From: Bacteroidales bacterium
Lineage (GTDB): Bacteria > Bacteroidota > Bacteroidia > Bacteroidales > UBA932
DNA length: 10,967 nt
Reading direction: 5' to 3'
NCBI GenBank assembly: GCA_023230265.1
Contig: JALNXR010000047.1
Coordinates: 1 to 10,967 of the forward strand
Part shown: positions 1 to 10,967 of the stretch, piece after piece
How positions within the stretch are numbered: the first letter of the stretch is position 1
How the letters are laid out: the number at the start of each line of letters is the position of its first letter
The notes under the pieces: model-generated
The model's input: the letters and a program-made list of their open reading frames with translations, nothing else
Told to the model about the DNA's origin: nothing
Database searches by the model: none
Position numbers and translations under genes: made by a program

Positions 1-3000
1 GTAGTGACTCCTATCACAATGTCATCCTGCTGCGTGTATTTGTGAATCACAATGTTGTAAACTGCAAGAAGGAACATAAAGGGAGATATCCCCTCCTTTG
101 CCGATAATTTTTTTATACAGGAAACCAGTTTTTCGTCCAATGCAAATGACAATACTCCGGCTTCGGCAGAGTTGGCAGGACTTCGCGGATAATCCAGCGG
201 CAGATTTAAAACAGGTATCTCCTCTTTGAACTCGTTTATCCAGTATGCCTTTTTCTTCTCCGTTTCATATCTCTGTACAAATCCGTTCTGCCATACAGCG
301 TAGTCTTTATACTGTATCCTGAGGGGCTCCTGTTCTATTCCGTTATAATAGCCGAACACCTCTTTTTTAAGTATTTCCATCGAATAGGCGTCGACAATAA
401 TGTGATGGGCATCAAAGAGCAGAAGATGGTTGTCTGGAGCGATTTCAATAATTTCCACCCTCAACAGTGGAGCCCTTCCCAGGTCAAATGGCTTAATGAA
501 GCTGCGTATATAGGTTCTGGCATCCTCTTCATTCATTTGTAACACAGGAATTTCAAAGTCTTTGAACTCTCCCGGGATCTGTACTGGAAGATCATTTACC
601 AGATCAAATGATGTCCTCAGGATTTCGTGCCGTTTTACCAGTTTCTCAAAAGCCAATGTAAGACGGGAGATGGCAAGATTCCCCTTTATCTGCCAAATCT
701 CGGGTATGTGGTAACTTAATCCGTCATTGCTGAGTCTGTCGAGAATAAAAAGACGGCGCTGTGCAGCCGATACCGGGTAGAAATCATATAACGGAGCAGG
801 AAGAATCTCAAATCCATCAGCTTGCTTATCTTTTCCTTTAATGATATTGTTCTCTCCCGAGTCTGCACCAACCTGCTGTTTTGAGCTCTGTGAAACAAGT
901 GACTTTGCCTCCTGAGAAACCGGTCGTTTTGAGTCCGGGAGGAGAGGCCGTTTTGATTCCAGGAAAACTGCCAGCTCCTCAATTGTAAGGTGGTTAAGCA
1001 GATCCCCGACGGAAAGCTTAATTTTTATTTTGTTTCCTATGAGCTGTATTATTTTGATTGCATGAATGGAGTCACCTCCCAGATCATAGTAGTTCTCACC
1101 GACACCAACGGCATCGTAACCAAGAACTTCCCCCCATATCTTTGCAACAGCTATCTCTGTTTCCGAATATTCACCGTTATCCCTGCCGGTAAGCAGGATT
1201 TGATCTCCGGCTGTTTCTGATGGCTGTTCTTTTTTGGCCTCACTCTTTTCTGATCCCTTCTGCAAAATATTGTCAGAAATAAGGAATGGCAGTTCTGCAC
1301 TCTTGTCCAGATAAGAGAGGTTGACCCTTCCGGGGATGACTGAGATGATTTTTTTATGCAACACTGTGCTCAAAGCAGATATCCCCTCTTCAACAGAGAC
1401 GGGGCTAAAGACTCCCTCTTCTGCCACCCCTCTCTCGTAAGCCATTCCCGTCTCTTTCCATGCGGAAAAATTGATACTCTGTGCTCTGATCCCCTTTCTG
1501 CAAAGCTCCGGGGCACAGCCATCCAGAAAACAGTTTGCCGATGTGTAATCGCTCTGCCCGGCAGTGGGTATTACTGCGGTGAGGGCAGAGGTCATTATAA
1601 AGAAGTCCGGCGGACTTTCCCTTAAGAGATTGACAAGATTAAGTGTCCCATGGATTTTGGGTAAAAGAGTCTTTTTAAAATCACCGGGCTTTTTGCTGTG
1701 GATAAAGCCCTCCCCGGCAACACCGGCAGTGTGTATAACCCCGCAGATCCTTCCCTGTTTTGTTGCAATCTTTTCTGTCAGCTTTTCCAAAGCCTGATAG
1801 TCTGCCACATCACATGAGGGAATTATTACTTCTGATCCGGAACTAATTATCTCTTTGATTATTTTTATCTTACGGCACAACCTGGCATCCCTGCCCTCCA
1901 TAAGAATATCTCCCCACTCATTTTCAGAAGGAAAAACAGATCTGCCGGCAAGTACCAGTTTCACTCTTTTCTGAGTTGATATCCAGCGGGCAAGTTCAAG
2001 AGCGATCCCCCCTGTACCTCCGGTTATCAGATAGGTTCCCCCATCTTTGATCTCAACTCTCGAATCCTCCGTTTTATCCGGATCAAGGACATTCATCTCC
2101 CTTAGATATCTGCTCCCCTCCCTGTAGGCACGATAATGGTAACTCTCTTTAAAACCGTTGAGCAGTTCGTTTAGTATCTCACCGGCAGTTGCCACTCCGT
2201 CAATATCAAGGAAACGGCAGGAGAGGTATGGAATTTCTCTCCCAAGCACCTGTGACAGCCCTGCAACTGCATATCCAAAAGGATTCCCTCTCTTTTCCCT
2301 CCCTGTTACTTCCAGTACATTCTCTCCCAGAAACAGAATATTCATTCCTGATGACAACTCCCCGGAGAGATAAGCAGCAAAATTGTATGCACTGTAGAGA
2401 GATTCCTCCAGTTCAGATTCCGCATCAGCTGAGTTTCTGACGATGTTAAAATCACTCTCCGGCAGCAGATACAAAACCTTATCAGGCAATTTTTTATCCT
2501 CCTGATTTAATATCACGCTATAGTCTCCGTCATCAATGCAATATCCCTTTATCCCCGGTGTTTGTCCGATCTTATCCACCAACAGAGGATTGCACTTTGA
2601 ATTGTATATCAGGGCAGCATTGACAAAACCGGGAAGTTCAGGAAATTGAGGCTTAAACGCTCTCCATCCGAGTTCATAAAATTTCTGTACGGACTGTAAA
2701 ACCACCTTTTTAAACGTGAATCCTCTGAACTGAACCACAGTGTTGCCAGAGGTATCTGTGATATCTATATCGTATCTTCTGGTCCCTCCTGACTCTTCCG
2801 GAAGTTTTTTTACATAGCTGTAAACTGAGTCCGGCATCTTTGAAATTATCCTGACCGTTCCGAATGAGAATGGAACGTATCCCGGTTCATCCAGAGCATA
2901 GCTCAGGGCAGCATCTGTCAAAGGGGGATAGAGCCAGAAACTCCCGGCAGCCGGAGAGTCTTGAGCCGGAATTTCCAGCCTGGCAACCGACTCATTGTCA

Positions 3001-6000
3001 TTCCAATGAATATCAGCGGAGATATTCCATTTGTCGCTTGTCTCTACCGGATTGTCCTTGTCTGCCTCTCTGCTTTCAGCAGTTGTAACTTTGTGAAGGG
3101 AGCAATTTTTAATCACTCGCTCAATATCCGGATTTTGATATTCTTTTTCACTTGCCGGTCTGACACAGAACCTTGCATAAGTGTGCCAGATATTTTCACC
3201 CTCTCTCGATTGAACTTCTGCATTTATGGAGCCATCCGGATTTTTATTCACAGAGAGTATCACCTCCTGTAAAGAATGTGAAAGCACCAGTGGTTTAAGC
3301 AGATAAAGTTCTTCTATCAGAAGATTGCCTGAGTTAAAATGGATTTTCCCGGCTTCGTACGCAATCTGCAGATAGGTTGTTCCCACCATTGTGGGTGTGC
3401 CCATAAGCCTGTGTTCATCCACTAACCATGAGTTGCCCTGAATATTAAGCTTGTACAGAGAGAGTGTAGGTGTCTCAGCAATACATTCATTAAGAAAGAG
3501 ATTGTTGTAATTACGGCCATAAGCTGAGGATTTTTCAACCTGTTTCCTGTCACGGAGTTTCACCCAGCATCTGCTCTTCTCGAAGGGATATCCGGGCAGG
3601 GAAATTCTGGAGGGGAAGTTATCCGGTGAGTATCTGGCGGCAAAGTAATCCTCCCATAAAATTTCTGCTCCGTTGAGATATGCTTCGGCAACCTTTAAAG
3701 GATCTTTTATCTCCTCTCCCTGCAGATTTATCCTGGCAGGTGAGGCAATTTTTACACACTTTACCTCTGTCTCCCCTCTCTCCAGCTTTTGCACAAGCTC
3801 TTCAACAGTGTCAAAGATAACGGCTGTCCTGCAGGAGTGGTGACCTCTTCCTGTGGCAAGGGTGTAGCATAGGTTGCGGGGATCGATATTCCGCTTCTCA
3901 ATTAGTGTTTCTCTGATTTTTGCAAGGTATCTCTCCAGAATCTGCTCACTGCGGGCAGAGAGTACGAACAGGTTGTTTCCGGTCGTCACTTTGTTTACCC
4001 CTTTTGGTCTTTGTGGAGCCTCTTCCATCACCACATGGCAGTTTGTTCCGCTCAGACCGAATGAACTTACACCGCATCTGAGAGGGGTTCCGTTTGATAT
4101 CCAGTCGGTAAGCTCTTTGTTAATATATACCGGACTCTCTTCAAATCTGATGTTCCGGTTGGGAGTGTTAAAGTGAACCAAAGGGGTAAGCTTTCTGTTT
4201 GAGAGGCTTAATGCTGCTTTTACCACACCCGCCAGACCGGCGGCAGTGTCCAGGTGGCCAATGTTCGCCTTGATTGCTCCAATTGCACAAAAACTCTTTT
4301 CTGCAGTGTGTTTTCTGAATGCCCTGGTTATTCCCTCAATCTCTACCGGATCACCCAGTTTTGTTGCGGTTCCGTGAGTCTCAATAAAACTTACAGTCAG
4401 CGGATCTATTCCGGCATCTTTCCAGGCTTTGTCAATCACATCGGCTTGTGCATCAGCATCCGGGGCGGTTATTCCGATAGTGCTGCCGTCCTGGTTAATT
4501 TCGCTGCCCCTGATAACTGCATATATGTTGTCATTCTCCTCCAATGCTTTTTCCAGAGACTTGACAAATATGGCAATTACCCCCTCTCCTCCTCCTGTAC
4601 CGTCTGCCGAATCATCAAAGCAATGTGCTCTTGAATCAGAAGAGTCTATACCGGAGCGGGATCCGCTATCAAGTGGGAGAAGGTGCAGTTTAACACCACC
4701 GACCAGTGCCGAATCAATTTTCCCCTCTCTTATTGCCTGGCAGGCCAGGTGAAGTGCCACCAGAGAAGATGAACAGGCTGTATCCACAAGCATTGCAGGC
4801 CCTTTGAGGTTGAGGAAGTATGAAAGCCGGCTTGCAAGTATGGATGGTGTCTGGGCGGTTAGTAAGAGATTCTGATCCGTCTCACCGGAAGAGTCAATGA
4901 ACCGGTTATATTCAGAAAAATTGTCACTGGCTCCGATGTAAATTCCCGTTCTGGCTCCCCATAGCTTATCACCACCATACCCGGCATCTTCAATTGCATG
5001 GCAGGCAGTCTCCAGGAACATTCTCTGTCCCGGATCAATAAGAGCCGCCTCAGAGGGAGAAAGTCTGAAGAATCCGTAATCAAACTTGTCAACCTCATTC
5101 AGATAGCAGTATTGTCTGTAATTAAGTGTTCCCCGGTAATTATCGTACAGTGCAGCAAGTTCTTCTATATCCCTCTTTCTGCTCTCAGGCAAATCACCTA
5201 TAAGATCACTTCCGTTACAAAGCTCTTTCCAGAATTCTCCCGGTGTCTGAGAGGAACCTATCCTGAGAGCTATTCCGGTAATTGCAACTCCGTCACTTTT
5301 GTGTCCCCGGATTTTTTCTTCATCGCCGTAAATTGGCTCCTTCTTATCAGGATTGATTCTGGAAGCTATAAAGTGAGCCTGCTCTGCAATTGTACTCTCA
5401 GAGAACAGGTCTGTAATTTCCAGAATACCCGGATATACCTCGTCTATTTTAGAATGAAGCCTGACAAGCAGTATAGAGTTGCCTCCGATATCAAAGAAAT
5501 TGTCACGGATGCTGATATTTTCTGTTGAGAGGACGGTCTGCCAGATTTTAAGCAGTACCGATTCCACATCGTTTTCCGGATTTTCGAATTCCACCCCTGT
5601 GGCAATGTTCTGAATGGCCGGAGGTAGATTCTTTTTATCCAGCTTGCCGTTAGAAGTGAGAGGTATTTTATCTGTTCTGATAAAATATGCGGGTATCATA
5701 TACTCCGGAAGGGAAGCCGATAAAAATCCCTTAAGTTCGTTTACCTTTTGTTCCTTTTCTGAGACCAGGTATGCTGCCAGCTCTTTTGTTCCCTCTCTGT
5801 CAACAGCAATGACTGCAACATCAGTGATGCCGTCCATGCTGCGCAGCCTCATCTCAATTTCAGCCATCTCCACACGGAATCCCCTGATCTGCACCTGGTT
5901 GTCACTTCTGTCCAGATATTCCAAAGTGCCGTCGCATAACCACCTACCGATATCTCCGCTTTTGTAAAGTATCTCCTGATCATTGTAAGGATTTTGTATG

Positions 6001-9000
6001 AACCTTTCTGAGGTCAGTTCCGGTCTGTTGAGGTATCCTTTGCAGACTCCGCTCCCCCCGACATATATCTCTCCGTATATTCCTTTGGGAACTAACATTT
6101 TGTGCTCATCAAGAATATAGACCTTTGTCTCAGGCAAAGGTTTGCCGATGTTGCTGCTTCCGGTTGATGATATTATCTCGCTGCCGGTGAGTTTATGGTA
6201 TGTAACATGTATTGTGGTCTCAGTTATTCCATACATATTTACCAGGGATATCGCGGAGGCGGGGTGAATTTTAATCCACTCCCCTAGTTTTGAGGGATCG
6301 AGCTTGTCACCTCCGAATATCACATACCTGAGATTAAGAGGAACTTCTTCTCGGCTGCCGGTCAGATATTCAGAAAATTTATAAAACGCACCGGGTGTCT
6401 GATTCAGTACGGTCACCTTTTGTCCGCTTACAATTTTTACGAAAGCCGATATATCCCTTACCTCACTCCTTTCCGGTATTATCAGTTTCCCTCCGTAAAG
6501 AAGAGCACCATACATCTCCCATACAGAAAAATCGAAACAGAAAGAGTGGGCCATTATCCAGACATCTTCCGGCCCGAAATCAAAATGGTTCCTGTCGTTA
6601 AAGAAGAGCCTCACCAGGTTTCTGTGGCTTATTTGACACCCTTTTGGCTTTCCGGTTGAGCCCGATGTGAATATCACATATGCTGTAGTATCCGGCAGGA
6701 CGGCCGGTGAGGAAGAGGGTGAGGGAATGGTTGCAGAAGCCTTATCAGCTTTTTCAATATCCAGAATCACACAGTCGCAACCGGCCTGTTTTGCTATTCT
6801 TTGCAGGCGCTCTTTGAGAGGAGCTGTAGTTAAGGCGATTTTTATGCGGCTTTCTGACAATATATGACTGATCCTTTCGTCGGGATATTCCGGATCCAGC
6901 GGGAGATATGCCCCGCCGGCCTTTAATACGGCAAGCAGAGCTATTACAGTGTTTTCAGAAGGGCTGAGAAAGACTCCGGTGACCTCCCCCGTTCCGGGAG
7001 TATAGTTACATCTTATAAACCGTGACAGGGAATCTGCATGCGTGTTCAGTTGATTATATGTCAGCTTTTTGTCTTTATATACCAAAGCCGTCCTTCCGGC
7101 ATACTCCCTTGCAGATTTCTCAAAGAGAGAGATAATTGTCTCTTTATCAGGGTAATCGGCAGCGGTGTTATTATATCCGGTCAAAAGGTCTTTTTCTTCT
7201 TCTTTGTCCGGGATATTGACTTTGCTGATTATGCAGGAGGGATCTTCCAACAGCTTTTCCAGCAACACTTTTAAATGTGAGGCAATCAGCTGAACGCGTT
7301 CTTTTCTGAATAGTCTGGTGTTGTACTCTATCAGTAAATCCAGCTCTTTGGCTTTATCGTTGAAATTAAATGTTATATCATATTTGCTGATATTCACCGG
7401 CACCTGGTAGGGTTCGGCAGAGGTGAAACAACGGGAAGGATCAATATCAAAATTCTGCAATACCAGTACAATGTCAAACAGTGGTGAGCGGCTTGTGTCC
7501 CTTGGGAGCCTTAGCTCCTCCACAAGTTTGTCAAAGGGATACATCTGATGGGAGAATCCCTCTGCAGAAGACTCTTTTACCTGTTCAAGTAGGCGTGCAA
7601 AAGAGATATCAGGATCAAGAGTGTCCCTCAAAGCCAGCATATTGACATAATTGCCAACCTGACTCTCAAGATCAGGATGGTCCCTTCCGGCCACCGGAGT
7701 TCCGATGATGATATCTGTTTTTCCGCTGTAACGGTGCAAAAGCACTTTAAGAACAGCGTTGAGAGTCATAAAGAGACTGCAGTGCCTTTTTGAGTTAAAA
7801 TCATCCAGTCTCTTTTTAAAATCTCCGGAGAATGAATAATAGATGCTGTCTCCGTCATAGGATTTAACAGCAGGCCTCAGAAAATCAGCAGGTATCTCAA
7901 CCGGGGATATCTCACCGCCAAGTCTTTCAAGCCAGTAATCCCGGTCAGAATTGTGACTTCCGGCTTTTATGCTGTTGTTCTGCCATTGAGAATAATCCCT
8001 GTACTGTATTTTTAGAGGGATAACCGGATTGAAGGAGTGCTTAAGATAATTCTGATAACCCCCGAAAAGTTCCTCTGTTATTACACCCAGAGACCATCCG
8101 TCGCATATGATATGGTGGATGTTTAGGAAAAGAACATAATCTGCAGGGGATATTTTTATTATGTAAAACCTGATAAGCGGGTACCCGGAAAGATCAAAGG
8201 CTCTTTCAGCATCAGAAGAGATGTATACAAACGCTCCTTTCTCAGGATCTTCTGTGTTTGAAAAGTCGTTTAAAATAATGGGAGCCTCTTTGTCATTTAC
8301 AGCTTTCTGTCTTGGTTCACCATCTATTTGGACAAAGACAGATCTAAGTGATTCGTGTTTTGTCAGCAGATCTCTGTATGACCTCTCCATCGCCGGAATG
8401 TCAATCTCCTCTTTTACCCTCACCGCTACCGGAATATTGTAGGTTGATTTAAGCTTTTCTATTTTGTCAAGCACCCACAATCTCTTTTGGGCAAAAGAGA
8501 GTTCATAATACTCTGATTCTTCTGTAACAGGAATATTTCCAAGTTCCTCTCTCTTTTTATCTTTAATTATCTCACCAAGAGATTTAATATCGGGATTTGA
8601 AAAGAATTCCTTAAGAGTAATTGCTGTTTTAAGCTCTTTCCTGATGGCGGATACAGCTCTGATTGCCTTAAGGCTGTGACCTCCCAGATTGAAAAAGTTA
8701 TCTTTTGCCGTTATGGTGTTGCAATCCAGTATCTCTTTGAATATTTTAATCAGTGTGCTCTCTGTCTTACCGGAAGGCGAAAAAAGTGTTTCCGGTTTAT
8801 TCTGTTGCATGTCAGGAATAGGGAATGAATTGGAATCAATTTTACCATTCTTGTTAAGTGGGAATCTATCCATCCTGACCACATATTTCGGGAGTAAATA
8901 TTCAGGAAGTTTTTTGCTCAGAAATTCCCTGTATTCATCACGACTGATATCTTTTACAGATGTAAAATAGAGTGCAAGCTCCTTCTGCCCCCCTTCAGCC

Positions 9001-10967
9001 ACCGGCAATGCTTTAACATTGGTCACCCCCTCCATCTGATTTGCATTGCTCTCCAGCTCACCCAGTTCAATGCGAAAACCTCTTATCTTTAACTGATCAT
9101 CATTTCTCCCTATAAAATGGATGTTACCGTCAGGCAGTAAACTCACAATATCTCCTGACCGGTAAAGAGTTCCGTTATACCATGGAGTTCTGACAAAAGA
9201 GGTTTTGTTGAGTCCGGGGCGGTTCAGATAGCCAATTGAAACCTGTTTGCCGCCGATATACAACTCCCCGGGGATACCCTCGGGGCAGAGATTCCCGTAA
9301 TCGTTGCAGATAAAGAGTTCTGTGCCGGAGATGGCTTTCCCTATAGGAATATCCTTATCAAACTTTTTGTCAATTCTGTATACTGTTGTTAAAACCGTAT
9401 TTTCAGTAGGTCCGTATACATTGTAAAAAGAGGCTCCCGGATATCTGGAAACAATGATGTCAGCTGCTTTGCAGGACATTTTTTCACCTCCTGCAAGTAT
9501 TGTCTTAACACCATCAAATATACCTGTATCTGCTCCTGCATCCTCTTCCGCCACTCTTGCAAAAAAGCCGGCAGACATTAACAGAGTGTTTATCTTATAT
9601 TCAGAAAAATAATCCTTAAGCCTGGCCGGATCAATGTAATCTTCTGTATCTTCCAAATAAAGGGTCCCACAGTTAAGAAGCGCGCTCCACATATCAAACA
9701 CTGTTGCATCAAAAGAGATTGAGGAGGTGGCAAAAATCCGTGTCCGGCTGTTTATAAATGAAAAATCTCTGTTTCTGACAAGGGACACCACCGCTTTGTC
9801 CTCTATCATAGTGCCCTTGGGCACTCCTGTGGAACCTGATGTATAGATTATATAAGCAAGATTAGAAGCACTTCTCTCCCAGGTTGTATTTTGCCGGTTT
9901 TGAGGATATTCAGAAAAGTCACCGGAGGTTATAACAAAACGGCCGGAGTCAGATAACCTTTTTCTCTTTCTGTCGGATATCACAACTCTCACCTCTGCAT
10001 CTTCCAGAATGACATTGATCCTCTCTTCCGGCATGTTCTCATCAACCGGGAGATAGGCACCGCCCGCTTTGAGTATTCCCAGAATTGAAACCAGCAGTTC
10101 ATGAGATCTTCCCATCAAAACAGCCACAACCTCATCTCTTTTTATGCAGTACTCTTCTTTGAGTCTGGAGGCGTAAGTATCTGACCTGTTATCGAGTTGA
10201 GTGTAGCTAAGGGGAATCCCCCTGTAAACAACAGCCGGTTTCTGAGGATATTTGGTTACAATTTCAGAAAATAACTCCACTATACTCTTTTCAGAAGTTT
10301 TTGCCGAACTTTTGTTGCTGAGTGTTTTTTTAATATAATCCGACTCCTCCTTTGAAATAAATTCCAGTCTCCTCAGAGGGACATCAGGTGATGCAATAAT
10401 ATTCTCAATAAGCACACCAAGGTGTCCGGCCATTTTTTCTATTTTTGCACGCCTGTAAAGATCAGGATTATAGACTATTCTGACTCCCAACTCCTGCGGG
10501 GATTCTTCAAATGAGAAATGGAGGTCAAACTTGCTGTAATTAATATCCGGTTCTGCAATCTCTGCCCTCACACCACGGAACGGAAGGGTATTCTCCTGCT
10601 TATCCTGCAGGGAAACAACCGTTTCGAACAATGGATTTCTGCTTGTGTCTCTCTCTGTTCCAAGCTCTTCAACAAGAAGATCAAAGGGATACATCTGATG
10701 GTCAAATGAGTTAAGTGATTCATTTTTGACAGAGTTCAACAGAGAGTTAAAATCTGCATCCGGATCAATTTTATTTCTCAAAGGAATCGTATTCACAAAG
10801 AAGCCTATCAGCCCTTCTGTATCTCCATACTCCCTGCCGGACACCGGAGTTCCCAGAATAATGTCGGTTTTTCCTGTATACTTGTTTATCAGCAGATTTA
10901 CCACAGAGAGTAAAAACATAAAGAGTGAGCTCTCGGTTTTGTAGCATAGCTCTTTAATTTCAGGTAA
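1..10967 (-). CDS. Hybrid NRPS / AT-less PKS megasynthase, partial at both ends
   Basis: One frame is open across the whole window, with 3655 complete codons from 10967 to 3 and the last two bases belonging to a split codon. Core motifs of every domain (DTACSSS, both TSGSTG loops, HHIICDG, three carrier GG(H/N/D)S motifs, the KR YxxxN) all fall in this frame, so there is no frameshift. The order is C(partial)-A-PCP-C-A-PCP-KS-linker-DH-KR-ACP-C(partial). Such cytoplasmic assembly lines build peptide-polyketide chains tethered to phosphopantetheine arms. The start lies beyond 10967, because the frame enters in the middle of a condensation domain. The stop lies below position 1, because the last domain is cut at its DIVIG motif. 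No thioesterase or epimerase is present, so chain release is encoded elsewhere. I do not recognise the particular cluster. Family assignment is very secure; product identity is unknown. Confidence 0.97.
3..800 (-). other. C3: condensation domain, N-terminal part, active site HHIIVDA
   Basis: Residues 3390-3655 are the first half or more of a condensation domain that takes the polyketide-extended chain from the ACP and amidates the next amino acid. Motifs: YPVSAAQRRLFILDRL, KRHEILRTSF, the active site in DAHHIIVDAYSMEI (H3521, H3522, D3526), YKDYAVWQ, and at the edge of the window DDIVIGVT. The Gly of HHxxxDG is Ala 3527. The catalytic second His and the structural Asp are kept, so activity is likely. 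The domain is not a heterocyclase (those have DxxxxD). Its presence proves that at least one more NRPS module follows beyond position 1. Confidence 0.94.
801..962 (-). other. Hydrophilic low-complexity linker between ACP and C3
   Basis: Residues 3336-3389 (54 residues) are rich in Ser, Lys, Gln, Asp and Gly and match no domain. A short near-duplication is visible: SKRP occurs twice, spaced by LLPD, at residues about 3333-3344. The linker is longer than the roughly 16-residue PCP1-to-C2 spacing in the same protein. It marks the return from PKS to NRPS chemistry and is probably a flexible tether. No function beyond that can be claimed. Confidence 0.75.
963..1175 (-). other. ACP: carrier domain of the PKS module, PCP-like motif
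   Basis: Residues 3265-3335 carry the malonyl and then the extended chain. The motif YYDLGGDSIHAIK has the attachment Ser at residue 3300 (codon 1070-1068). LGGDS is the signature more usual in peptidyl carriers than in cis-AT ACPs. It fits a carrier whose product is handed to a condensation domain, here C3. The upstream helix starts at ETEIAVAKIWGEVLG. Confidence 0.94.
1290..2690 (-). other. KR: ketoreductase domain (structural plus catalytic halves)
   Basis: Residues 2760-3226 reduce the beta-keto group with NADPH. About 2760-2974 is the catalytically inert structural subdomain; it shows no SAM-binding motif, so it is not a methyltransferase. The catalytic Rossmann half starts at GTYLITGGTGGIA (the last Gly of the usual GGTGGLG is Ala) and continues with LVLAGRS and CDVAD. 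Catalytic residues are K3104 in LPKIHGT, S3127 in IMTSALTA, Y3141 and N3145 in DYTSANCFLD. The stretch where B-type KRs carry LDD reads VAGEG, so the diagnostic Asp is replaced and stereotype is not assigned; absence of LDD leans towards A-type. No enoylreductase follows, so a double bond made by DH would be retained. Confidence 0.95.
2697..3530 (-). other. DH: polyketide dehydratase domain with altered motifs
   Basis: Residues 2480-2757 form a double hot-dog DH, which removes water from the beta-hydroxyacyl chain. The first motif reads DEHRLMGTPTMVGTTYLQ. The catalytic His is H2519 and the motif Gly is G2523, but the Pro of HxxxGxxxxP is Val 2528. The second motif reads YPPLTDAALSYAL, with catalytic Asp D2685, but the usual Gln/His of DxxxQ/H is Ser 2689. 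The His-Asp dyad is intact, so activity is plausible. The two substitutions leave room for a weakened or silent domain, or for a different role such as isomerisation. The length of about 280 residues is normal. Confidence 0.9.
3555..4010 (-). other. KS-flanking linker where an acyltransferase would normally sit
   Basis: Residues 2320-2471 (about 150) join KS to DH. They begin with the typical post-KS stretch NLFVLSARSEQILERYLAKI, contain LCYTLATGRGHHSCR, and end with the conserved SLPGYPFEKSRCWV segment. A cis acyltransferase needs about 300 residues more and carries a GHSxG motif; neither is present here. This is the layout of trans-AT PKS modules, in which the remaining linker helps dock a free-standing malonyl acyltransferase. 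The absence of an AT is seen directly; recruitment of a trans enzyme is inference. Confidence 0.88.
4011..5300 (-). other. KS: ketosynthase domain, all catalytic residues present
   Basis: Residues 1890-2319 perform decarboxylative Claisen condensation of the PCP2-bound aminoacyl chain with an ACP-bound malonyl unit. The domain begins GVAITGIA. It has the nucleophile in DTACSSS (C2065), the first His in ETHGTATKLGDP (H2198) and the second in NIGHLDTAAG (H2238). The spacings of 133 and 40 residues are normal for the family. It ends with SSFGLSGTNCHVVMEEAP. With the full Cys-His-His triad it is an elongating KS, not a non-extending KS0 (those usually lose a His). Its position after an NRPS module implies that it accepts an aminoacyl or peptidyl donor. 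Confidence 0.97.
5370..5585 (-). other. PCP2: peptidyl carrier domain handing over to the PKS module
   Basis: Residues 1795-1866 are the carrier for the threonyl intermediate. The motif is NFFDIGGNSILLVRLH, with attachment Ser 1831 (codon 5477-5475). A GGNS carrier directly before a KS is common at NRPS-to-PKS switches. About 23 residues separate it from the KS on the same polypeptide, so no docking domain is needed. Confidence 0.95.
5622..7148 (-). other. A2: adenylation domain, predicted threonine
   Basis: Residues 1274-1782 activate the amino acid for PCP2. Motifs seen: VIFTSGSTGKPKG near 6665, SFCFDFSVWEMYG, LVNMYGITETT, YKSGDIGRW, DNQVQIRGFRVE and NGK with Lys 1775. The specificity pocket, aligned to gramicidin synthetase A, reads D1479, F1480, W1483, N1522, I1550, G1552, M1578, I1586, H1587 and K1775, i.e. 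DFWNIGMIHK. The established threonine code is DFWNIGMVHK, so this differs by one conservative Val-to-Ile change. Threonine is therefore a strong prediction; a Thr analogue such as dehydrobutyrine would need later modification. An oddity is that the usual GR before the A8 motif reads DR (LDRSDNQ), and ELGEIE reads EMAEIE. Neither removes a known catalytic residue. Confidence 0.95.
7260..8516 (-). other. C2: complete condensation domain
   Basis: Residues 818-1236 should link the PCP1-bound chain to the threonine on PCP2. Complete motif set: LSFAQKRLWVLD at the start, KHESLRSVF, the active site HHIICDG (H951, H952, D956, G957), then YRDYSQWQ, DIIIGTPVAGRDH, GNYVNMLALR and HQMYPFDKLVEEL. The preceding carrier has no epimerase, so an LCL-type domain is expected, but the subtype (LCL versus dual) needs a tree. 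The short segment HQMYPFD is identical to that in C1 even at DNA level (see the repeat entries). Confidence 0.96.
7531..7551 (+). repeat. 21-bp direct repeat, copy in C2
   Basis: The + strand string tcaaagggatacatctgatg plus one g is identical to that at 10681-10701. It encodes the HQMYPFD core of condensation domain C2. It reflects homology between the two modules rather than a separate element, but such identical patches are possible sites of recombination between modules. Confidence 0.85.
8565..8774 (-). other. PCP1: peptidyl carrier domain
   Basis: Residues 732-801 form the thiolation domain that carries the amino acid activated by A1. The motif NFFNLGGHSLKA is canonical, and the phosphopantetheine attachment Ser is residue 765 (codon at 8675-8673). 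GGHS is the form usual for carriers that feed an ordinary condensation domain, which agrees with C2 following directly and with no epimerase being present. Confidence 0.96.
8820..10292 (-). other. A1: adenylation domain, substrate probably hydrophobic
   Basis: Residues 226-716 activate an amino acid as its adenylate and load it on PCP1. Core motifs in order are IIYTSGSTGVPKG (the P-loop near 9840), SFDATVFDMW, YNVYGPTEN, YRSGDI, then DQLKIRGFRIELGE and the NGK motif with the catalytic Lys at residue 709. Aligning by eye to gramicidin synthetase A, the ten-residue pocket reads D420, A421, F424, then L, L, G, V, V, L and K709. That is a non-polar pocket, so an aliphatic residue (Val, Leu or Ile class) is the best guess. 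It matches no standard code that I can recall exactly. The length of about 490 residues is normal. The domain call is secure; the substrate is only a class-level guess. Confidence 0.95.
10395..10967 (-). other. C1: condensation domain, C-terminal part only
   Basis: Residues 1-191 are the last portion of an NRPS condensation domain, which forms a peptide bond between the upstream donor and the amino acid on PCP1. Visible late motifs are DIILGTPVSGRE followed by GFFVNTIPLR, and HQMYPFDLLVEEL followed by RDTSRNPLF, all typical of the family. The catalytic HHxxxDG lies outside the window, so it cannot be said whether this is an LCL, dual or starter (lipo-initiating) type. Its presence shows that at least one more unit or an acyl starter precedes A1. 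Confidence 0.95.
10681..10701 (+). repeat. 21-bp direct repeat, copy in C1
   Basis: This is the second copy of the exact 21-bp match, 3150 bp from the first and in the same reading frame (3150 is divisible by 3). It encodes HQMYPFD in condensation domain C1. The flanks on either side diverge at once at DNA level, although the proteins remain similar. Confidence 0.85.

Follow-up and report, generated by a model that had tools for sequence, protein, structure and literature searches.

Domain organization of the window

The window, by which we mean the whole 10,967-nt stretch of DNA analysed, carries one single reading frame on its minus strand (3-10967). The frame is open at both ends and encodes 3655 aa with the domain order C(partial)-A1-PCP-C-A2-PCP-KS-DH-KR-ACP-C(partial) and no AT. 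The features are listed below in the order of translation.

10332..10967, minus strand: C1, condensation domain, C-terminal part only; the frame continues past the window end
8811..10283, minus strand: A1, code DAFLLGVVL, tentatively hydrophobic type
8556..8783, minus strand: PCP1, GGHSL (Pfam match and motif)
7182..8534, minus strand: C2, HHIICDG intact (Pfam match and motif)
5613..7136, minus strand: A2, code DFWNIGMIH, threonine type
5358..5585, minus strand: PCP2, GGNSI
3768..5303, minus strand: KS with C/H/H motifs and RhiE/CurL-like linker, no AT behind (Pfam, motifs, KS tree)
2703..3500, minus strand: DH, motif Pro replaced by Val and motif Gln/His by Ser
3399-3416, minus strand: DH His motif, EHRLMG
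2901-2921, minus strand: DH Asp motif, LTDAALS
2088..2690, minus strand: region between DH and KR, taken from its placement as the probable structural half of the KR
1368..2078, minus strand: KR, GGTGG and Y..AN (Pfam match and motif)
954..1172 (about), minus strand: ACP, GGDSI at 1065-1079 (bounds placed visually on either side of this motif)
3..785, minus strand: C3, N-terminal part of a condensation domain behind the PKS module, HHIIVDA

The KS motifs (TACSSS, HGTAT, NIGH) and the KR motifs are intact, and three carrier sites of the form GG[HND]S are present in the window. A Pfam search of the 3655-aa frame gave no match to the AT domain (PF00698). With PF00698 absent and a RhiE/CurL-like linker behind the KS, the module has the makeup of an AT-less KS module. 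Judged by strong Pfam matches and by relatives with the identical domain order, this arrangement is beyond chance. The sequence-only reading had described a threonine A2 and its carrier followed by KS-DH-KR-ACP and a C domain, and Pfam, motifs and relatives bear this out. The interval it gave for the unit, 2697-7148, holds A2 to DH; the KR, the ACP and the C domain behind them have lower coordinates.

Threonine-type code of A2

A codes were read as nine letters against GrsA PheA (1amu). The A2 code DFWNIGMIH equals the threonine code DFWNIGMVH(K) at 8/9 letters, with I for V at position 330, so that the match described earlier as almost exact is one residue off the published code. DFWNIGMVHK is paired with Thr in Table 1 of PMC2533009. 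We regard A2 as threonine-type by its specificity code, and threonine as its probable substrate.

Complete A2 codes were obtained for 18 family members, the window included. Ten share the window's code and 8 deviate from it in 1-3 letters, with the variation at positions 236, 278 and 299; the 8/18 departures count against threonine. A2 might instead load another residue, giving a different C2-extended amino acid. The substitution at 330 and the variation within the family favour this alternative, as does PMC12283262, in which DFWNIGMVHK and three similar codes also accept modified Thr or Ser moieties. The form with V at 330 corresponds to Thr in a cyanopeptolin that has been isolated (PMC2533009), and we consider a residue other than threonine rather unlikely.

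The synthase family and its acyltransferases

The window synthase belongs to a family of ~6000-aa synthases from MAGs of Bacteroidota and Ignavibacteriales. Downstream of the part held by the window, family synthases continue C-A3-PCP-C-A4-PCP-TE. C-A-C-A follows the KR in 16/19 proteins examined; one carries an additional C, and two (the window and P0002) end before this point. A TE motif is present in 17/17 family proteins that extend far enough. A3, A4, TE and AT lie outside the window and are known from relatives, which weakens the product proposed below.

A discrete AT gene lies inside the synthase cluster in the related genomes G613 and G943, and each has a second AT elsewhere. The third related genome, G001, gave three AT matches, 0/3 of them on the synthase contig, a further point against that product. 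A proteasome subunit or other target copy in the cluster had been suggested as a sign of a warhead role. None was found among ten scanned genes neighbouring the G613 synthase, and the G943 neighbours were inspected by eye only.

Near-identical DNA was found neither in the plasmids nor in the E. coli genomes searched. In viral contigs, 35 stretches fit a pattern and 0 were relatives. A scan of genome contigs turned up three loci, of which L001 is close (38%). The A code ahead of the L001 KS is DVKDFGFIE, which is of neither Ser nor Thr type.

Signatures in common with thalassospiramide-type synthases

The thalassospiramide-type set comprised one named Tistrella record, three Tistrella-like protein clusters and one protein, P0193; a name search for Thalassospira sequence found none. 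TMO_RS20815 and TMO_RS31725 on Tistrella mobilis pTM1 are putative thalassospiramide synthase genes. The Tistrella synthase carries a branched-hydrophobic A, which we take to be for Val, then a Ser-type A, KS-DH-KR, C, an A remnant and C, and the next gene encodes A-MT-PCP-TE. Its first module lacks a full A, which fits the truncated A published for the Tistrella pathway.

Val for the motif Pro together with Ser for the motif Gln/His (the V/S signature) occurs in 26/431 DHs: 21 on the family side, 5 of thalassospiramide type and 0/405 others. The C domain behind the module carries HHxxxDA in 18/20 family proteins, 5/5 thalassospiramide-type proteins and 1/50 others. A tree of 234 KSs joins the window family and the thalassospiramide type with support 0.925, one stray KS included. 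With the five motif columns removed, family and Tistrella-type DHs fail to cluster in the DH tree, and against the family profile the Tistrella-type DHs rank 213-302 of 374 scoring non-family DHs. Common descent of the DH signature was therefore rejected, and the failure to cluster also counts against the product proposed below. L001 has both signatures behind its non-Ser/Thr code, which counts against it as well.

Thalassospiramides contain a Ser+C2 unit from AT-less synthases. Its AHPEA form bears a 5-OH and has the 2-enoyl double bond in trans (J 16.0 Hz), and the undehydrated ADPA unit also occurs. The thalassospiramide review draws the AT from primary metabolism, and its scheme legend lists no DH (all PMC3705361, PMC5577590). 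In 5/5 Tistrella-type proteins we found a divergent DH with the His/Asp pair, which suggests this domain as the dehydration route in thalassospiramide synthases.

State of the DH and the proposed product

The DH His and Asp are invariant in 8/8 aligned family DHs, and both residues are present in each of the 21 family-side DHs whose motif columns are complete. The two replacements, Val and Ser, are found in 21/21 of the same DHs. A structure model of middling quality (pLDDT 68.5, pTM 0.74) indicates only that the fold is that of a PKS dehydratase. Enoyl isomerases generally have the catalytic Asp replaced. The window DH resembles trans-AT enoyl isomerases and double-bond-shifting DHs in lacking the motif Pro and Gln/His, but differs in keeping the Asp.

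We propose that the window encodes the middle of an assembly line in which NRPS modules are combined with an AT-less PKS module. In this scheme A2 would load threonine onto PCP2, and a separate acyltransferase would place a malonyl unit on the ACP. The KS would join the peptidyl-threonine with this malonyl unit, the KR would reduce the beta-ketone and the DH would remove water. The resulting 4-amino-5-hydroxyhex-2-enoyl unit (vinylogous threonine) would be handed on by C3. Relatives suggest that an alanine-type and then a proline-like residue follow. The TE probably closes a lactone on the 5-OH, giving a 12-membered ring as in thalassospiramides. The enoyl unit would resemble the reactive group of thalassospiramides, which are protease inhibitors, and the product may likewise inhibit proteases. 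The Ser+C2 enoyl unit of thalassospiramides and the common signatures make vinylogous threonine the best reading. For the whole explanation, thalassospiramide-like release included, we estimate a probability of about 0.55.

The DH leaves room for two other products. If it is inactive or partly active, the unit would be the statine-like 4-amino-3,5-dihydroxyhexanoyl. Both motif residues are substituted throughout the family side, and ADPA offers a matching undehydrated unit, which also speaks against our proposal. PMC9600693 calls DHs inactive when both His and Asp are missing; most DHs that have the His are annotated there as active, even those in which Ser replaces the motif Pro. The intact His/Asp pair and the enoyl form in the conserved thalassospiramide ring make the statine-like unit unlikely. 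In the second alternative, the double bond would move after dehydration by the DH, and the unit would become 4-amino-5-hydroxyhex-3-enoyl (an enamide). PMC9600693 recognizes double-bond-shifting DHs by the loss of both Pro and Gln/His, a published mark that counts against a plain 2-enoyl. In PMC11672594 most enoyl isomerases read HxxxxxxxxL/V, and Foldseek matches of the model include GphF DH1 (6mbh, by its entry title the isomerase-inactive L1744P variant). Against a shift, the second-motif replacement is Ser, where PMC11672594 names Val or Leu, and there is no upstream polyketide double bond to move. Tistrella-type DHs also carry the same two replacements, and their type of pathway yields a product with a 2-enoyl unit. 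With the Asp retained, we hold the shifted bond to be quite improbable.

Vinylogous threonine thus stays our preferred reading. Of the earlier proposal, the C2-extended threonine stands and the vinylogous form is the likelier one; plain dehydration is not a given, since the DH motifs lack Pro and Gln/His. The 4-aminohexa-2,4-dienoyl option (rakicidin/vinylamycin type) found no support and was dropped: no evidence was seen that the side-chain hydroxyl is eliminated as well, with no extra dehydratase in the window or among the ten scanned genes beside the G613 synthase.

A possible shared device

Alphaproteobacteria and Bacteroidota may have converged on, or kept, one device: a DH with HxxxxxxxxV/DxxxS and a following C with HHxxxDA, which would make and pass on vinylogous amino acids (with a delta-hydroxyl in the case of Ser or Thr A codes) that close into 12-membered Michael-acceptor lactones. 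We put this forward tentatively, as a doubtful generalization. In L001 the signature accompanies a different A code, which means that the device may work independently of a delta-hydroxyl, and we lowered its odds slightly. If it holds, the rule linking loss of Pro and Gln/His to double-bond shifting fails for such DHs, and the signature could serve to search for warhead peptides, in the present case those of a threonine family from uncultured Bacteroidota. As warheads, vinylogous amino acids are rare, and a threonine version would be a new one; its occurrence across a multi-member family would point to a class of candidate covalent protease inhibitors. Together, the signatures of the DH and the next C provide a concrete, testable rule.

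Comparison with known systems

The name vinylogous threonine was not found in a literature search that covered few subscription papers, in agreement with the sequence-only reading, which could name no threonine version. The available part of the 2026 barnesin paper (PMC13096860) names vinylogous Tyr and Arg, homologated Ser and syrbactins, and does not name threonine. As precedents the earlier reading had offered syrbactins and rakicidin; thalassospiramides and barnesin are closer, and the thalassospiramide type had been overlooked.

Syrbactins are macrolactams made by cis-AT enzymes. By description, syringolin and glidobactin are alike in having a vinylogous amino acid and covalent proteasome inhibition, and syringolin A also has a 12-membered ring, but the amino acids are others. 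In barnesin A (BrnE/BrnF, Sulfurospirillum barnesii), an AT-less KS-DH-KR behind an NRPS makes a vinylogous amino acid, the producer is an anaerobe, and the cluster includes a cyclic-peptide transporter and a PPTase. Vinylogous Arg formation by this KS-DH-KR was reconstituted in E. coli (PMC13096860). Barnesin A, likened here by description, differs in its arginine, in a PKS immediately ahead of the TE, in its linear lipodipeptide product and in FabD as the trans-AT. The name Sulfurospirillum is absent among the best 120 of 7742 matches, most of which are without organism names.

The order C-A(hydroxy amino acid)-PCP-KS-DH-KR-carrier-C, lacking an AT, is common to thalassospiramide synthases and the window family, as are a branched-hydrophobic A earlier, both signatures, a KS clade and, in the family members that extend beyond the window end, two C domains and a TE later. 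The window synthase has the order A(hydroxy amino acid)-PCP-KS-DH-KR-carrier followed by C, but neither serine as the extended residue nor a DH of common descent. The A code is of Thr type in the window and of Ser type in thalassospiramide synthases, with one ACP against two. The last module has a Pro-like A4 in the window family, whereas thalassospiramide synthases have an A-methyltransferase (N-methyl-tyrosine). An in-cluster AT gene is present in 2/3 window-related genomes, in contrast to the primary-metabolism AT of the thalassospiramide review. The phyla differ and the DH sequences are not close. With its Thr-type code, the window synthase is not counted as a member of the thalassospiramide type but would work alike; by the sequence comparisons made here, that type is its closest known relative.

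Domain organization of the window

The window encodes a single reading frame with both ends open (minus strand, 3-10967, 3655 aa). Pfam and profile mapping gave the domain order C(partial)-A1-PCP1-C2-A2-PCP2-KS-DH-KR-ACP-C3(partial), and found no acyltransferase (AT) domain in this frame. The sequence-only reading had described a Thr-type A2 and its carrier, followed by an AT-less KS-DH-KR-ACP and a C domain, and this arrangement was confirmed in one frame. Its interval, 2697-7148, spans A2 to DH; three mapped domains lie outside, at lower coordinates:

1368-2078, minus strand, KR
954-1172, minus strand, ACP
3-785, minus strand, C3 (partial)

The motifs of KS, KR and carriers are all intact. 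The KR GGTGG is at 2007-2021. With the next two residues the window reads GGTGGIA, versus GGTGGIG in P0002, a Bacteroidales MAG relative, and 16 other relatives. The final A is common to L001, a related Bacteroidetes MAG locus (GGTGGIA), and four Tistrella-type (thalassospiramide-type) proteins (GGTGGFA).

Read against GrsA PheA, the A2 code is DFWNIGMIH. The Thr position of an isolated cyanopeptolin has DFWNIGMVHK in Table 1 of PMC2533009, and the Thr section of PMC12283262 lists the same code. We put the probability that this module makes a C2-extended threonine, as its domains predict, at about 0.8.

Relatives of the synthase

Residues 1890-3330 were used to search for relatives, and 1980 of 2169 scored proteins matched at E ≤ 0.001. 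Among the best 120 of these, P0002, a partial Bacteroidales MAG protein, matched the query region at 84%, and 17 proteins matched at 49-52% over 99-100% of it. Fifteen of the 17 are 5933-6048 aa long and the other two are shorter; their names include Ignavibacteriales (three) and Prolixibacteraceae (one).

Counting the window and P0002, 19 proteins were examined, and 15 of them have the layout C-A-C-A-KS-DH-KR-C-A-C-A. The other four are a protein missing just the initial C, another with an additional C, and the window and P0002 themselves, both of which end before A3. All 17 proteins that continue have a TE motif, GHSAGG, close to the C-terminus. A1 is hydrophobic and variable. Among 18 complete A2 codes, ten are DFWNIGMIH, four are DLWNIGMIH and four are otherwise different. 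A3 follows the pattern D-x-[FY]-[NQ]-N-x-x-T-Y, presumably alanine-like; two A3 codes sought in the literature gave no match. The A4 code is DVQTISQVV in 17/17. PMC12283262 gives Val236 together with Gln239 as the pattern for proline, so we tentatively regard A4 as Pro-like.

Genomes and gene neighbourhood

The family is sporadic. Whole-genome scans at E ≤ 1e-20, on overlapping and partly sampled genome sets, gave DH-alignment matches in 1/395, 3/395, 3/391, 1/5 and 3/164 genomes. Strong matches (E below 1e-100) were found only in genomes G001, G613 and G943; those in G414 and G980 were weak.

In G613 and G943, a second NRPS (~3195 aa) and a discrete acyltransferase lie beside the synthase, and each genome has a second AT elsewhere. 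G001 has three AT matches, all on contigs other than the ~33 kb synthase contig. Since the AT gene is in the cluster of G613 and G943 but not on the G001 synthase contig, two of the three genomes probably have a dedicated trans-AT. Further G613 neighbours, assigned by Pfam, are a DUF481 protein, an ABC transporter (which we read as a predicted cyclic-peptide exporter), Band 7/SPFH, NMT1-like binding and Cache-type sensor proteins, two DUF697 proteins, a type II thioesterase and a phosphopantetheinyl transferase. All except the last have look-alikes in G943. The SPFH, NMT1-like and Cache-type proteins and one DUF697 protein adjoin the synthase at L009:1942-5329; in G943 their counterparts start at the end of L012 and continue into L013. 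Speculatively, the SPFH protein could serve in self-protection.

Shared DH and C signatures, and the KS tree

We compared 445 DH matches in 352 proteins, 431 with all five motif columns. These proteins were fetched by similarity to two queries (family and Tistrella-type) and include many near copies, so the counts are not an unbiased census. Val replaces the motif Pro and Ser the motif Gln/His in 26 of the 431: 21 family-side DHs (window, its database copy P0008, P0002, 17 relatives and L001) and five Tistrella-type DHs. The pair occurs in 0/405 others, where Val alone was found in four and Ser alone in two. Alignment of the window DH with PksJ DH (8qk4) displays both replacements directly, and its fold model (pLDDT 68.5, pTM 0.74) matches PKS dehydratases.

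The C domain following the PKS module has HHxxxDA in 18/20 family-side proteins (L001 included), 5/5 Tistrella-type proteins and 1/50 others, 17 of which have no HHxxxD match at all. In a tree of 234 KSs, the family and Tistrella group joined with support 0.925, with long branches to Tistrella. One stray, the P0104 KS (at 2418), itself after a KR, falls inside this clade. The window's KS and DH have some of their closest outside relatives in P0345, P0337, P0338 and P0343, KS-DH-KR(-C) proteins that begin with KS; in P0345 the DH Pro position is likewise occupied by Val.

Common descent of the DH signature was not borne out. With the five motif columns removed, family and Tistrella-type DHs no longer clustered: the latter ranked 213-302 of 374 non-family DHs scoring against the family profile, and the DHs closest to the family were other trans-AT ones. 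The DH signature therefore reflects convergence or extreme divergence rather than demonstrated descent.

L001 (1703-13975) has the same PKS block with the A code DVKDFGFIE directly before the KS, close to the code DVKDFGFVE that the NRPS next to the synthase in G613/G943 has in its module 3. From this resemblance, the block may have moved between residues. In L001 both signatures come after an A domain of neither Ser nor Thr type, so they may occur independently of a delta-hydroxyl.

Predicted activity of the DH

Loss of the DH Pro and Gln/His is associated with double-bond shifting in PMC9600693 and PMC11672594, and the family DH could be read this way. However, it retains the catalytic Asp, its second motif has Ser rather than Val or Leu, no upstream double bond is available to shift, and the corresponding thalassospiramide unit is a 2-enoyl: AHPEA, 4-amino-5-hydroxypent-2-enoyl, trans with J 16.0 Hz (PMC3705361). 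Dehydration can also be partial, as shown by ADPA, the hydrated counterpart of AHPEA that thalassospiramides also contain (PMC3705361). The vinylogous threonine proposed from sequence stands well as a C2-extended threonine and less firmly in its vinylogous form, which we still favour somewhat.

Comparison with known systems

Neither vinylogous threonine nor a 4-amino-5-hydroxyhex-2-enoic unit was found by name in the literature searched, with most subscription papers outside its scope; matches came only through the loose term 5-dihydroxyhexanoic acid. For Ignavibacteria NRPS/PKS, only sponge work matched. The sole relevant-looking match in a further search was the barnesin paper, which, in the text covered, lists the vinylogous forms of Tyr and Arg together with homologated Ser and the syrbactins, and no threonine (PMC13096860).

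A protein search of plasmid records matched Tistrella mobilis pTM1. Its 5215-aa synthase begins with C and PCP without a full A, then a branched-hydrophobic A, which we take to be for Val. The next A is of Ser type, with the code DVWHFSLV and a ninth letter read as D or W depending on alignment; KS-DH-KR, two carriers, C, an A remnant and C come after it. An A-methyltransferase-PCP-TE gene is at the other end of the record; the plasmid is circular. The synthase (L014:12096-27743) contains a divergent DH that retains His/Asp. Thalassospiramide ring closure is on the AHPEA 5-OH, in agreement with the atom count of the 12-membered ring.

The layout, including a first A reviewed as truncated in Tistrella (PMC5577590), fits the thalassospiramide pathway, to which we putatively assign this synthase; the review's scheme legend names no DH domain. 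In the conserved 12-membered ring the unsaturated carbonyl binds calpain Cys115 (PMC4350077), and the last two residues are valine and N-methyl-tyrosine (PMC3705361).

In family members that run on past C3, two residues and then a TE are predicted to follow a gamma-amino delta-hydroxy unit, as in the thalassospiramide pathway. By our count, closing a family lactone between the 5-OH and the final residue again gives 12 atoms; whether the product closes as such a ring we judge an even chance. At the position of N-methyl-tyrosine in thalassospiramide, the Pro-like A4 would introduce a tertiary amide. The synthase looks like a threonine counterpart of the thalassospiramide device.
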